A DNA stretch of 64,000 bases from Acidimicrobiales bacterium (GTDB taxonomy: Bacteria > Actinomycetota > Acidimicrobiia > Acidimicrobiales > Aldehydirespiratoraceae): contig JAQWMR010000010.1 in the NCBI GenBank assembly GCA_029246685.1, positions 496,001-560,000 on the forward strand, given 5' to 3'. The notes beneath the pieces were generated by a model. The model saw only the letters and a list, made by a program, of their open reading frames with translations, did no database searches and was not told where the DNA came from. The position numbers and the translations under genes were made by a program. Shown piece after piece: positions 40,515-43,598 of the stretch. Within the stretch, counting starts at the first letter, position 1, and each line of letters starts with the position of its first letter.

Positions 40515-40537
40515 CCCGCCCGTGTCGTGCGGGCGGG
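40515..40537. other. GC-rich hairpin in the pckA upstream region
   Basis: CCCGCCCG (40515-40522) pairs with CGGGCGGG (40530-40537) across a 7-base loop, in a CCCG-repeat tract between the divergent RAM-protein and pckA genes. It is about 95 bases before the pckA ATG and could be part of a promoter or leader structure; TAAGTT at 40549-40554 is the nearest -10 candidate downstream of it. Confidence 0.35.
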
Positions 40538-40631
40538 GGTGCCCTCGCTAAGTTGGGTGTCTGATCTTGAGGCGCTCACATCCGGCCGTGGCGCGCCGAC
40601 CGGAATCGAGATCGCATCCCCTGGAGAAATC

Positions 40632-42296
40632 ATGAGCAGCGCAGCGGAAGCGGCAGCACAACTCGAGAGCGCGTTCGGCCTCACCGGCGTCGAACTTCGC
40701 TACGGCCTCAGCCAGGACGAGCTCTTCCAGCAGGCGATTGCCAACGACCGTGGGCGAGTTGAGCTCGACGGCCCGGAAGACGCCCAGAAGGCGTTCCCGA
40801 CAGCGCTCGGCACCGGCGGTCCGCTCGTCTACTACTCGGACCCCACCTGCACCGGCCGCCCGGTCCAGGACACCTTCTGTGTGAACCGTGCCTCCGTCAC
40901 CGATTCGGTGTGGTGGAAGAACGGCTTCGCCAAGTTCGATCCGGACAAGTTCGACGCGCTGCTTCCGCGGGTCATCGACCACCTCAACGAGCAGGGCCGC
41001 CATCTCTACGTCGCCGATGTGTTCTGCGGCTGGGACACCCAGTTCGCCGAGCCCTACCGGTTCGTCGGCGAGTACGCGACCCACGCCTACTTCTGCAACA
41101 TCATGTTCCCCAAGAACGTGCGCGACGACAGCGACCGCGCCGAGGCCGGGTGGACGCTGATCAACGTCCCGTCCTTCGAGTGTGATCCGGAACGTGACGG
41201 CACCATCTCGAAGCGCGGCGTGATCATCGACATCGAGAACCGCGTCGGCCTCGTGCTCGGCAAGGCCGACTACTGCGGCGTGAACAAGAAGACCATGTTC
41301 ACGATCATGAATTACGTCCTGCCGGCCAAGGGCCAGCTGTCGATGCACTGCTCCGCCAATGTCGGCGAGCGGGGCGACACCGCGATTCTCTTCGGGCTCT
41401 CCGGCACCGGCAAGACCACGCTGTCCGCCGACCCCGATCGTGAGCTCATCGGCGACGACGAGCACGTCTGGACGGATCGAGGCATCTCGAATTTCGAGGA
41501 CGGTTGCTACGCCAAGCTGATCGATCTCGACAAGAAGGCCGAGCCCGTCATCGCGGCGGCGATGTCCATGAAGGGCACGCTGATCGAGAACGTGCCGGCA
41601 CTTCCCGGCAAGGCCATCGAGGCGACGGACCCACAGGAGTTCGATCTCACCGACGGCACGATCACCGAGAACACCCGGTTCGCCTATCCGCTGACCACGA
41701 ACCCCAATGTGCGCGAGGGCGCGTCCGGCCCGCATCCCGAGACCATCGTGCTGCTCACTGCCGACGCCTTCGGCGTTCTGCCGCCCGTCTCGATCCTCAA
41801 CTCGGACGAGACGATGTACCACTTCGTGATGGGCTTCACCTCGAAGCTCGCCGGTACCGAAGTCGGCGTGACCGAGCCCGAGCCGTCGTTCTCGTCGTGC
41901 TTCGGCGCCGCGTTCATGTCGCAGAAGGCATCGGTCTACGCCGAGCTTCTCGCCAAGCGCATGAGCGAGAACGAAACCCGCTGCATCCTGCTCAACACGG
42001 GTTGGAGCGGCGGGCCCTACGGCAAGGGCGAGCGCATGTCGCTCAAGGCCACTCGGGCACTGCTCAACGCCGCACTCGAGGGCGAGTTCGACAACGCCGA
42101 GCTTCAGGTCGAGCCCACGCTCGGTGTGAAGATGCCAGTTTCGTGCGACGGCGTCGACGACGAGATCCTCAACCCCCGCGAGACCTGGGACGACCCCGAG
42201 GCGTACGACGAGGCCGCCGCAAAGCTGCGCGACATGTTCCGCGCCAACTACGAGAAGCAGGGCTACGCCAACCTCGGCATCCAAGCCGCCATGTAA
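40632..42296 (+). CDS. pckA: Phosphoenolpyruvate carboxykinase (ATP-type)
   Basis: The 554-aa protein has the ATP-dependent PEPCK signatures: the PEPCK kinase-1a P-loop GLSGTGKTTLSADPDRELIGDD, GVIIDIENRVGLVLGKADYCGVNKKTMF (oxaloacetate/metal region) and TWSGGPYGKGERMS-like LNTGWSGGPYGKGERMSL. It converts oxaloacetate to PEP for gluconeogenesis. Most actinobacteria use the GTP type, so an ATP-type enzyme is notable. A GGAG SD sits nine bases before ATG 40632; the frame is open upstream but without homologous sequence. A hairpin terminator follows the stop, overlapping the left end of the inverted-repeat element. Confidence 0.94.
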   Translation: MSSAAEAAAQLESAFGLTGVELRYGLSQDELFQQAIANDRGRVELDGPEDAQKAFPTALGTGGPLVYYSDPTCTGRPVQDTFCVNRASVTDSVWWKNGFAKFDPDKFDALLPRVIDHLNEQGRHLYVADVFCGWDTQFAEPYRFVGEYATHAYFCNIMFPKNVRDDSDRAEAGWTLINVPSFECDPERDGTISKRGVIIDIENRVGLVLGKADYCGVNKKTMFTIMNYVLPAKGQLSMHCSANVGERGDTAILFGLSGTGKTTLSADPDRELIGDDEHVWTDRGISNFEDGCYAKLIDLDKKAEPVIAAAMSMKGTLIENVPALPGKAIEATDPQEFDLTDGTITENTRFAYPLTTNPNVREGASGPHPETIVLLTADAFGVLPPVSILNSDETMYHFVMGFTSKLAGTEVGVTEPEPSFSSCFGAAFMSQKASVYAELLAKRMSENETRCILLNTGWSGGPYGKGERMSLKATRALLNAALEGEFDNAELQVEPTLGVKMPVSCDGVDDEILNPRETWDDPEAYDEAAAKLRDMFRANYEKQGYANLGIQAAM

Positions 42297-42299
42297 CCC

Positions 42300-42319
42300 G
42301 CCCCCCTCGGGGGCTTCTT
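42300..42319 (+). terminator. pckA intrinsic terminator
   Basis: GCCCCC (42300-42305), loop CTC and GGGGGC (42309-42314), followed by TTCTT, form a rho-independent type terminator four bases after the pckA stop. Its 3' half is also the outer end of the left inverted repeat of the 42310-43367 element. Confidence 0.75.
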
Positions 42320-42361
42320 AACCAAGTTACGCGGCCTATCCACGCGTTGGTCGACGCAGAT
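42310..42361 (+). repeat. Left terminal inverted repeat
   Basis: The outer 25 bases (42310-42334), beginning GGGGCTTCTTAACCAAG and ending TTACGCGG, are the exact reverse complement of 43343-43367. The following 27 bases (42335-42361) match the complement of 43316-43342 at 21 positions. The outer end doubles as the 3' arm and T-rich tail of the pckA terminator. Confidence 0.85.
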
Positions 42362-42404
42362 GAAACGACGTGGGCTGTCACACCCCCGCGATTGACTCTT
42401 GGCC

Positions 42405-43286
42405 ATGCGAGAGATCTCTGATCTTGCTCAGAAGGCTGCGAGTCAATACGGCCTTCTCCGATCAACGGACCTCACCGAACTGGGAGTGACCCGCCAGCAG
42501 AAGGCCACGCTCGTGAATCGGGGAGTTCTCTGTCGCGAGCGGCGTGGGCTCTTCGTCCTCGCTGGAACGGCGAAAACGTGGGAGTTCCAGCTCATGCGAG
42601 AATGTCTCGGCGCAGCCGGTCGCGGCGTTGTGAGCCACCGGAGCGCCATGCGGCTGTGGGATCTCCGCCCTTGGGAGACCTCGGTCGAGGTGACCGTCCG
42701 GGGATTTGCCGCGCCGACGGTGGATGGCGCAGTCGTTCACCGCTCTTACGATCTCCTGGAAGGTGATGTTCGACACGTAGCTGGGCTTCGAGTGACCTCC
42801 CCGGTTCGCGCCTTGGTCGATGCTGGCGCATACTTCCGCGACTGGGAGGTCGAGAGGGCGTTCGATGCGGCCATCAGAACTGGCCTCGTGTCGAGCGACG
42901 AGATCTGGAGCTACCGAGTCAAGGTGGGCCGGAATGGGAGATCGGGCGTCACCGCCGTCGATCGCGTTCTTGGTGAGACGCCGACAGACATCGATGTGGC
43001 GGAGTCACCGATGGAGATCGAACTCATGCGGCTGCTTGATCGATACGGCCTTCCTACCCCGGTGCCGCAGTACCCGGTTCAGGCGTCTGGCGAGTCGTTT
43101 CGGGTCGATTTCGCCTACCCGGACGAGCGCCTCCTGCTTGAGTGCGACGGGTACCGCGAACACATCGCGCCGGGGCAGTTCGAGCGAGACCGTCGACGAC
43201 AGAATCTGCTCGTTCTCGACGGGTGGACTGTGCTGAGGTTCGCGAAAACGGATGTTCGTCAACGCCCGGCATGGCTGGCGTCCTAG
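42405..43286 (+). CDS. AbiEi-type wHTH protein with DUF559/Vsr-like nuclease domain
   Basis: The 293-aa protein has an N-terminal winged-helix of the AbiEi antitoxin type (QYGLLRSTDLTELGVTRQQ, then RGVLCRERRGLFVLAG) and a middle region with HRSAMRLWDLRPW and VTSPVRALVDAG. The C-terminal 100 residues resemble the PD-(D/E)XK/Vsr-like DUF559 nuclease domain: an early Glu in SPMEIELMRLL, the core acids VDFAYP and LLECDG, then QFERDRRRQNLLVLDGW and VLRF. No toxin partner gene is adjacent, unlike abiE operons. Start ATG 42405 is preferred over TTG 42399. It is the only gene within the inverted-repeat element. A role as DNA endonuclease or regulator is inferred from the family only. Confidence 0.82.
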   Translation: MREISDLAQKAASQYGLLRSTDLTELGVTRQQKATLVNRGVLCRERRGLFVLAGTAKTWEFQLMRECLGAAGRGVVSHRSAMRLWDLRPWETSVEVTVRGFAAPTVDGAVVHRSYDLLEGDVRHVAGLRVTSPVRALVDAGAYFRDWEVERAFDAAIRTGLVSSDEIWSYRVKVGRNGRSGVTAVDRVLGETPTDIDVAESPMEIELMRLLDRYGLPTPVPQYPVQASGESFRVDFAYPDERLLLECDGYREHIAPGQFERDRRRQNLLVLDGWTVLRFAKTDVRQRPAWLAS

Positions 43287-43315
43287 CTTCGGCGAGCGCT
43301 CGCAAGCGCGACGGG

Positions 43316-43367
43316 ATCCGCGTCGAGAAACGCATGAATAGCCCGCGTAACTTGGTTAAGAAGCCCC
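43316..43367 (-). repeat. Right terminal inverted repeat
   Basis: This is the mirror of the left repeat: 43343-43367 is an exact 25-base inverted copy and 43316-43342 matches at 21 of 27 positions. The outer end is followed by GGGAGGGGG, which with the CCCC arm gives a terminator-like hairpin plus CTTCTT for the cold-shock-like gene on the minus strand. Confidence 0.85.
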
Positions 43368-43376
43368 GGGAGGGGG

Positions 43377-43598
43377 TTAGAGGTCGGGGGTGCGCATGTC
43401 GACTTCGGAACCGAGGCGGAGCTGGGTGGCTCGGCCCGAATCGTCGAGGTCGAATTGCACGCGCTGACCTTGGCGCAACATGCGGAAGATGGAGCCGTCG
43501 AGGGCGTTGTCGGCGAGGTCGACGTCGGCCAGATCGGCTTCGTTGATCAGCACACCGTCGCCAGTGCTCGGGTCATAGCTCTTGATCACTCCCTGCAT
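43377..43598 (-). CDS. Cold-shock-domain-like small protein
   Basis: The 73-aa protein follows the OB-fold cold-shock pattern: MQGVIKSYDPSTGDGVLINE, then ALDGSIFRMLRQGQRVQFDLDDSGRATQLRLG. Canonical CSD residues of the RNP1/RNP2 motifs (KGFGFI, VFVHF) are not preserved: the first is replaced by STGDGVL and the aromatic RNP2 is lost. It is thus a divergent member that may bind RNA weakly or not at all. ATG 43598 lies six bases after TACGCT on the minus strand. It is divergent from the DAK2 kinase gene and ends next to the inverted-repeat element. Confidence 0.78.
   Translation of the reverse strand: MQGVIKSYDPSTGDGVLINEADLADVDLADNALDGSIFRMLRQGQRVQFDLDDSGRATQLRLGSEVDMRTPDL

Follow-up and report, generated by a model that had tools for sequence, protein, structure and literature searches.

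The window analysed in this study is a stretch of 64,000 nucleotides from a genome of 3.8 Mb in 20 contigs (G000). Within it, a single gene lies between the two arms of an inverted repeat, and pckA and a cold-shock-like gene converge around this unit. The features of the locus are given below with coordinates and strand.

40527–42296, plus strand: pckA (ATP-type PEP carboxykinase), the left neighbour at a conserved junction, with its stop at 42296.
42301–42361, plus strand: left arm of the inverted repeat, with one whole unit inside (42314–42361) consisting of head CTTCTTAACC, stem and tail GACGCAGAT.
42376–42397, plus strand: promoter-like motif TGTCACAC-N8-TTGACT, 7 nt 5' of the ATG, leaderless.
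42405–43286, plus strand: gene of a predicted AbiEi-fold + Vsr/EDxHD/DUF559 nuclease of 293 aa, with ATG at 42405 and stop at 43286.
43316–43376, minus strand: right arm of the inverted repeat, with one whole unit inside (43316–43363) in inverted orientation.
43377–43598, minus strand: small cold-shock-domain-like gene (csp), the convergent right neighbour at the conserved junction, with its stop at 43377.

The 25-nt exact inverted copies at 42310–42334 and 43343–43367, which the original prediction had described, were confirmed in the window sequence, and we found that the full inverted repeat (42301–42361 and 43316–43376) is 61 nt long with 85% complementarity, and no other in the region comes near its length. 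The 20-mer CTTCTTAACCAAGTTACGCG occurred at two places only, both of them the arms, and shuffles with up to 3 mismatches allowed gave 0.00. The presence of one gene with AbiEi and nuclease parts between two convergent genes was also confirmed; in the Pfam scan, the CSD match of the csp neighbour reached 20.8 bits, under the cut-off of 27. Each arm holds a complete 48-nt unit of a dispersed repeat family and is thus not an ordinary transposon end. The two window copies are partly decayed, with head and left stem arm intact and the right arm degraded, and their folding was no better than that of shuffles. A C/G-rich palindromic extension adjoins the left copy, the intrinsic-terminator check found no T-tract terminator at either window repeat, and an Rfam search returned a sub-threshold chance match only.

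The Pfam scan of the protein showed an AbiEi_4-like match at the N-terminus (22.5 bits, under the cut-off of 25) and a DUF559 match at the C-terminus (29.5 bits, over the cut-off of 20.6), where MTES_1575 was also matched; PADLOC AbiEi profiles matched residues 5–168 (E 2e-25). In the AlphaFold2 model of the window protein (mean pLDDT 88.6), residues 1–191 matched the AbiEi antitoxin 6Y8Q (Z 13.1, rmsd 3.4, 179 aligned) and residues 201–293 matched the catalytic domain of I-Bth0305I (Z 11.1, rmsd 2.0, 84 aligned), the next fold matches of the latter being NGO0050 (Z 10.0) and Vsr (Z 9.2). These predictions suggest that the protein is a fusion of an AbiEi-fold DNA-binding/antitoxin part (1–191) to a Vsr/EDxHD/DUF559 nuclease domain (about 201–293). 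Over 62 homologues, D235 (62/62), E246 (61/62), H253 (60/62) and D262 (58/62) were near-invariant, as was R265, and the nuclease domain therefore looks active. Candidate EDxHD positions, not aligned residue by residue to I-Bth0305I, are E204 (in 49/62), D235, H253, and then D262 or D283; catalytic residues are retained across paralogues. The Pfam scan found AbiEi and DUF559/MTES_1575 only, with no Y1 HUH tyrosine transposase domain (PF01797) in the protein, and no AbiEii (DUF1814 nucleotidyltransferase) toxin gene is adjacent, the neighbours being pckA and the cold-shock-like gene. A single-protein scan of genome contigs found one relative, 57% identical, in an Acidimicrobiia MAG, which places G000 near Acidimicrobiia.

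The repeat unit is REP-like and 48 nt long; between head CTTCTTAACC and tail (A)ACGCRGAT lies a 29-nt hairpin, whose stem has at most 13 bp. The original prediction had called for a search for the repeats elsewhere in the genome, and when G000 was searched with the whole unit, the arm was indeed found without the gene at 5 further sites, one of which is an inverted pair of copies with a short gap between them. Good folding was seen for copies elsewhere in the genome and for those of relatives (z about −2 to −4.7). An alignment of 27 copies showed that the repeat ends are constant (CTTCTTAACC and mostly CGCRGAT) and that the GTAG/CGTC tag is absent from them; since copies were found by the head or by BLAST, the way they were selected accounts for part of this uniformity of head and tail. 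Full symmetry, CTTCTTAACC...GGTTAAGAAG, is seen in several G002 copies (L161–L163), which look as though head and tail had been made equal. At L222 (G004:C1:2702934-2703698), a repeat tail is followed by a short tandem (GGCGCGGATCGCGGGTTT) array, which is absent from the sister genome G005.

Most of the dispersed copies stand at the 3' ends of genes, in the gap of a convergent pair (25/29 by a simple ORF test, which overcounts in GC-rich DNA). The head's TAA doubles as a stop codon at site L009, where the repeat is present in G000 and cleanly absent from G002, G004 and G005. Site L010 is occupied in three species, by a different repeat family in each, and has no repeat in three further species. 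Such presence and absence at single sites between close relatives amounts to gain or loss of whole units of ~60 nt. The majority of repeat sites are common to the sister genomes G004 and G005, which indicates that turnover or movement is slow or past. A repeat-free orthologous site was found, with flanks too diverged for a target-site duplication to be read. The G003 locus L216 (G003:C4:175605-177484), orthologous to the repeat site L004, has an extra ~1.2 kb between the flanks, whose longest open frame has 419 codons with W-C-W-G-type repeats.

To relate the repeats to the gene, we counted the head pattern CTTCTTAACCNAG, independently of the stem sequence, in 61 genomes. The results showed 43 matches, 9 in G000, 8 in G002, 13 in G004 and 13 in G005, which are the four genomes where a gene of this clade stands at the pckA–csp junction; there were 0 matches in the other 57 genomes, three of the same genus among them, and the reversed-pattern control gave 7 scattered matches in the 61. 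When 13 DUF559-gene repeats were searched in 7 genomes of the genus, with two RAYT REPs searched alongside, each was dispersed only where its own gene or an ortholog was present, in modest copy numbers (about 3 to 17 places, which are lower bounds). Across genomes, protein identity correlated with repeat similarity (Mantel r 0.45, 0/2000 permutations), a correlation driven by pairs with >50% protein identity. The gene–repeat link is a strong one. RAYT (Y1_Tnp) genes with their own inverted REPs flanking them occur in G000 at L019 (G000:C18:72418-75744; REP of the GTGTCAGACACC type, at least 14 copies in the genome) and at L020 (G000:C12:142184-145417; REP of the GGGTCAGACCC type), where the gene looks truncated.

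Homologues are present in 40/61 related genomes. The sole paralogue in G000 (L022) lies between different, unrelated inverted hairpin repeats of 66 nt (89%). The survey of DUF559 paralogs that had been proposed covered the 106 homologous genes with both flanks readable among the related genomes, and showed the same layout around most of them, each with matching repeats of its own: in 74/106 the repeats of the two flanks matched each other better than the 99% level of the controls (controls 1%), and about 30% of homologues had no flanking repeat by this test. A flank-repeat score of at least 20 was reached by 67/106 homologues, as against 3/2120 mismatched-flank controls and 0/19 pckA genes. 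The layout occurs in 31/37 genomes, where genomes of one genus are non-independent samples; 54/72 of the flanking repeats are hairpins (z<−2), and they lie ~50–100 nt from the gene ends. In a phylum-wide sample, the protein was found in 128/298 genomes and flanking repeats at 21/28 tested loci. In the Tsukamurella tyrosinosolvens plasmid record NZ_LR134454.1, inverted 42-nt hairpins (93%) enclose a DUF559 gene and recur at 6 intergenic places in three records of the species. No comparable flanking repeats were found at DUF222-HNH genes with the same promoter. At L139 601-1907 (G004) and L157 602-1925 (G005), a cytochrome P450 gene, encoding 399 aa in G004, lies between two R2 hairpin copies in inverted orientation. 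The recurrence of the same layout with different hairpins across actinobacteria suggests an undescribed enzyme family that spreads or maintains its own small repeats.

The 13-bp helix was then analysed in 27 distinct copies from the four genomes. Paired cells made up 85.5%, compared with 66.0 after shuffling, double changes numbered 66 compared with 28.1, and the covariation score was 0.492 compared with 0.171 (0/500 shuffles); sliding the partner by 1–3 columns gave scores of 0.08–0.18. This pattern of substitutions indicates that the stem is kept by compensatory change. Three dispersed G000 sites are orthologous to G004 repeat sites, and together with both gene flanks they provide 5 orthologous pairs. 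Stem identity at these pairs was 0.33, the same as at non-orthologous pairs (0.33), whereas within genomes it was 0.74 in G000 and 0.94 in G004; all copies of a genome have thus changed together, and the copies within a genome evolve in concert. Gene conversion, or loss followed by re-insertion, would be able to produce such concerted change; re-insertion after loss could occur at hot spots. Alternatively, the copies could be binding sites that co-evolve with a changing DNA-binding protein.

The promoter-like motif is also shared among homologues. We found that TGTCACAC-N8-TNNNNT sits 6–8 nt 5' of the start codon in many of them: the strict TGTCACAC was present in 28/111 homologues and 2/2081 control windows, and a looser form in 47/109 homologues and 57/1965 controls. 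G000 contains 14 TGTCACAC-N8-TNNNNT sites (L192–L205; 1 for the reversed control), which precede recA, radA, rmuC, two DUF222-HNH genes, a RAYT gene and the window gene, among others, the genes being named from reading their translations. Further sites stand before a ComF-like gene, a gyrB/parE-like gene and a helicase. We take the motif to resemble the RecA-independent (RecA-NDp/PafBC) DNA-damage promoter of mycobacteria. The 14 sites probably mark a DNA-damage regulon to which several selfish-looking nuclease genes belong. An account of the role of PafBC is given in PMC6789036.

We consider it probable that the locus is a REP/RAYT-like unit built on an unrelated nuclease, in which a vertically inherited gene is bracketed by its own inverted REP-like hairpins. 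In this explanation, inheritance keeps the gene at one position, and the hairpins are the part that moves or is homogenised. By this mechanism, the AbiEi-like part would recognise the repeat, in line with the binding of known AbiEi proteins to inverted repeats of 23 bp (PMC7319586), and the Vsr/EDxHD domain would nick or cut within or beside it. This may happen when DNA damage switches on the promoter and single-stranded DNA allows hairpins to extrude. With another repeat unit as its template, repair would then place new copies between convergent genes and would also overwrite old variants, giving both spread and homogenisation. We infer this cut-and-copy reaction, in which the nuclease would do for its hairpins what the RAYT transposase does for REPs, with an unrelated enzyme.

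An alternative is that the AbiEi-like part is an autoregulator that binds the flanking repeats, that the dispersed copies are extra binding sites (a regulon, a DNA organiser or decoys), and that the nuclease does not move them, the stems changing in step with the specificity of the protein. AbiEi and Rv2827c do bind inverted repeats in their own promoters (PMC7319586), and a distance of ~50–100 nt from the gene ends would suit such sites. We nevertheless regard this reading as unlikely: the dispersed copies lie mostly at 3' ends between convergent genes and not in promoters, there are repeats on the downstream side of the gene as well, paralogues retain the catalytic residues, and whole ~60-nt units have been gained or lost at single sites between close relatives.

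That a RAYT (Y1 tyrosine transposase) or another transposase moves the hairpins in trans, with the AbiEi-DUF559 gene as a passenger, seems to us very unlikely. The two RAYT genes of G000, flanked by their own REPs, and the promoter type that RAYT and DUF559 genes have in common are in its favour, but the RAYT REPs are unrelated in sequence to the hairpins, and each repeat tracks its DUF559 gene, not a RAYT. It is the genomes G006, where 17 copies of its own repeat, R10, occur with no RAYT detected, and G003, where three RAYTs occur with no head match, that make movement in trans unlikely; in G002 (82% complete), 8 head matches likewise occur with no RAYT detected.

The original prediction had proposed a minimal one-gene mobile element spread by its nuclease, and the junction bears on this directly. 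The gene occupies the pckA–csp junction in G000, G002, G004, G005 and G006, that is, in 5/7 examined genomes of the genus, and is not within an intron, intein or interrupted host gene, lying between two intact genes. In G009, G011, G012, G014, G019 and G021, of the same family and other genera, pckA and csp are directly convergent with gene and hairpin absent; the empty junctions that had been looked for were thus found, with both neighbour genes intact and no half-palindrome. Neither a target-site duplication nor the exact chemistry of insertion could be read. In G015 and G020 the neighbouring pckA block is inverted and the gene is likewise beside csp. The asnC-pckA block is inverted relative to csp with the nuclease gene at one breakpoint in G020 (L178) and G015 (L182), and is also inverted, without the gene there, in G008, G013 and G017. 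The proposal held as far as the unit is compact, its nuclease is tied to the repeats, and it is absent from the junction in other genera; whole-unit movement found no support. Absence from six family genomes beside presence in five of one genus, and the many paralogues per genome in other families, would fit a transposon or homing unit whose gene and ends move together, but the window clade has one gene copy per genome, syntenic in the genus, no target duplication was seen, the gene had no match in phages, and on plasmids the DUF559 matches were only distant and for the most part incomplete. It is the 48-nt hairpin that is dispersed, not the gene, and we give movement of the whole unit very little credence.

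The other origin that had been put forward, insertion of a gene in the centre of an old palindromic terminator, was rejected: a whole unit stands on each side, single copies and an inverted pair occur elsewhere, gene-free junctions have no half-palindrome, and there is no T-tract. That ordinary terminators of bidirectional transcription, or insulators, stand around the gene by chance is hardly credible. Hairpins between convergent genes and the C/G-rich extension at the left copy might suggest it; against it stand the missing T-tract, the strict dependence on the gene clade, the conserved unpaired head and tail, and the pattern in 0/19 pckA genes.

REP-type repeats are known to depend on a single class of enzymes, the HUH tyrosine transposases; for other families of palindromes no enzyme is known. 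The wider proposal, that AbiEi-EDxHD nucleases are a second, independently evolved enzyme class running REP-like repeats, namely damage-inducible nucleases that recognise hairpins, spread and homogenise their own dispersed copies by break and copy, are widespread in actinobacteria and had so far been linked to no repeats, has in our view an even chance of being right. If it is, it would explain the abundance of solitary AbiEi-DUF559 genes in actinobacteria, would give AbiEi-DUF559 proteins a testable substrate, and would provide a natural case of dispersed hairpins overwritten in concert with their enzyme. Reading the unit as hairpins with their nuclease would also link such repeat systems to the DNA-damage response. 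In the open-access literature searched, we found no prior report of repeats tied to AbiEi-DUF559 genes, and nothing relevant that links AbiEi with DUF559, or DUF559 with palindromic or inverted repeats.

The REP-like unit with its own nuclease can be compared with several known systems. With the REP/REPIN-RAYT 'REPtrons' and 'TIRtrons' (PMC3733652, PMC8049555, PMC3116915) it shares a vertically inherited gene of a DNA-cutting enzyme between inverted palindromic repeats. In REP-RAYT systems, a nuclease gene that is present in single copy and inherited vertically goes together with palindromes scattered over the genome (PMC8049555, PMC3733652). Here too the repeats depend on the presence of the gene and are found, as single copies or inverted pairs, for the most part at 3' ends where genes converge. 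The enzyme differs, being an AbiEi-Vsr/EDxHD fusion with no HUH tyrosine domain, and the repeats carry no GTAG/CGTC tag and have a greater length, 48 nt including a head and a tail of ~10 nt; because of the missing HUH domain and tag, the unit is not a RAYT/REPtron member. With the AbiE type IV toxin-antitoxin system and its AbiEi / Rv2827c proteins (6Y8Q, 1ZEL; PMC7319586) the predicted fold of residues 1–191 is common, and AbiEi binds inverted repeats, whereas here no AbiEii/DUF1814 toxin is adjacent, a nuclease domain is added, and the repeats stand on both sides and are dispersed. I-Bth0305I and the Vsr mismatch endonuclease (3R3P, 1CW0; PMC3943268) share the fold of the catalytic domain, whereas the window gene involves no intron, intein or interrupted gene, has another DNA-binding part and comes with dispersed hairpins. 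The CGTC-tagged REPs without a known transposase (PMC3733652) are likewise palindromic intergenic repeats with no RAYT around; they differ in tag and taxa, and such orphan families might have a similar nuclease.
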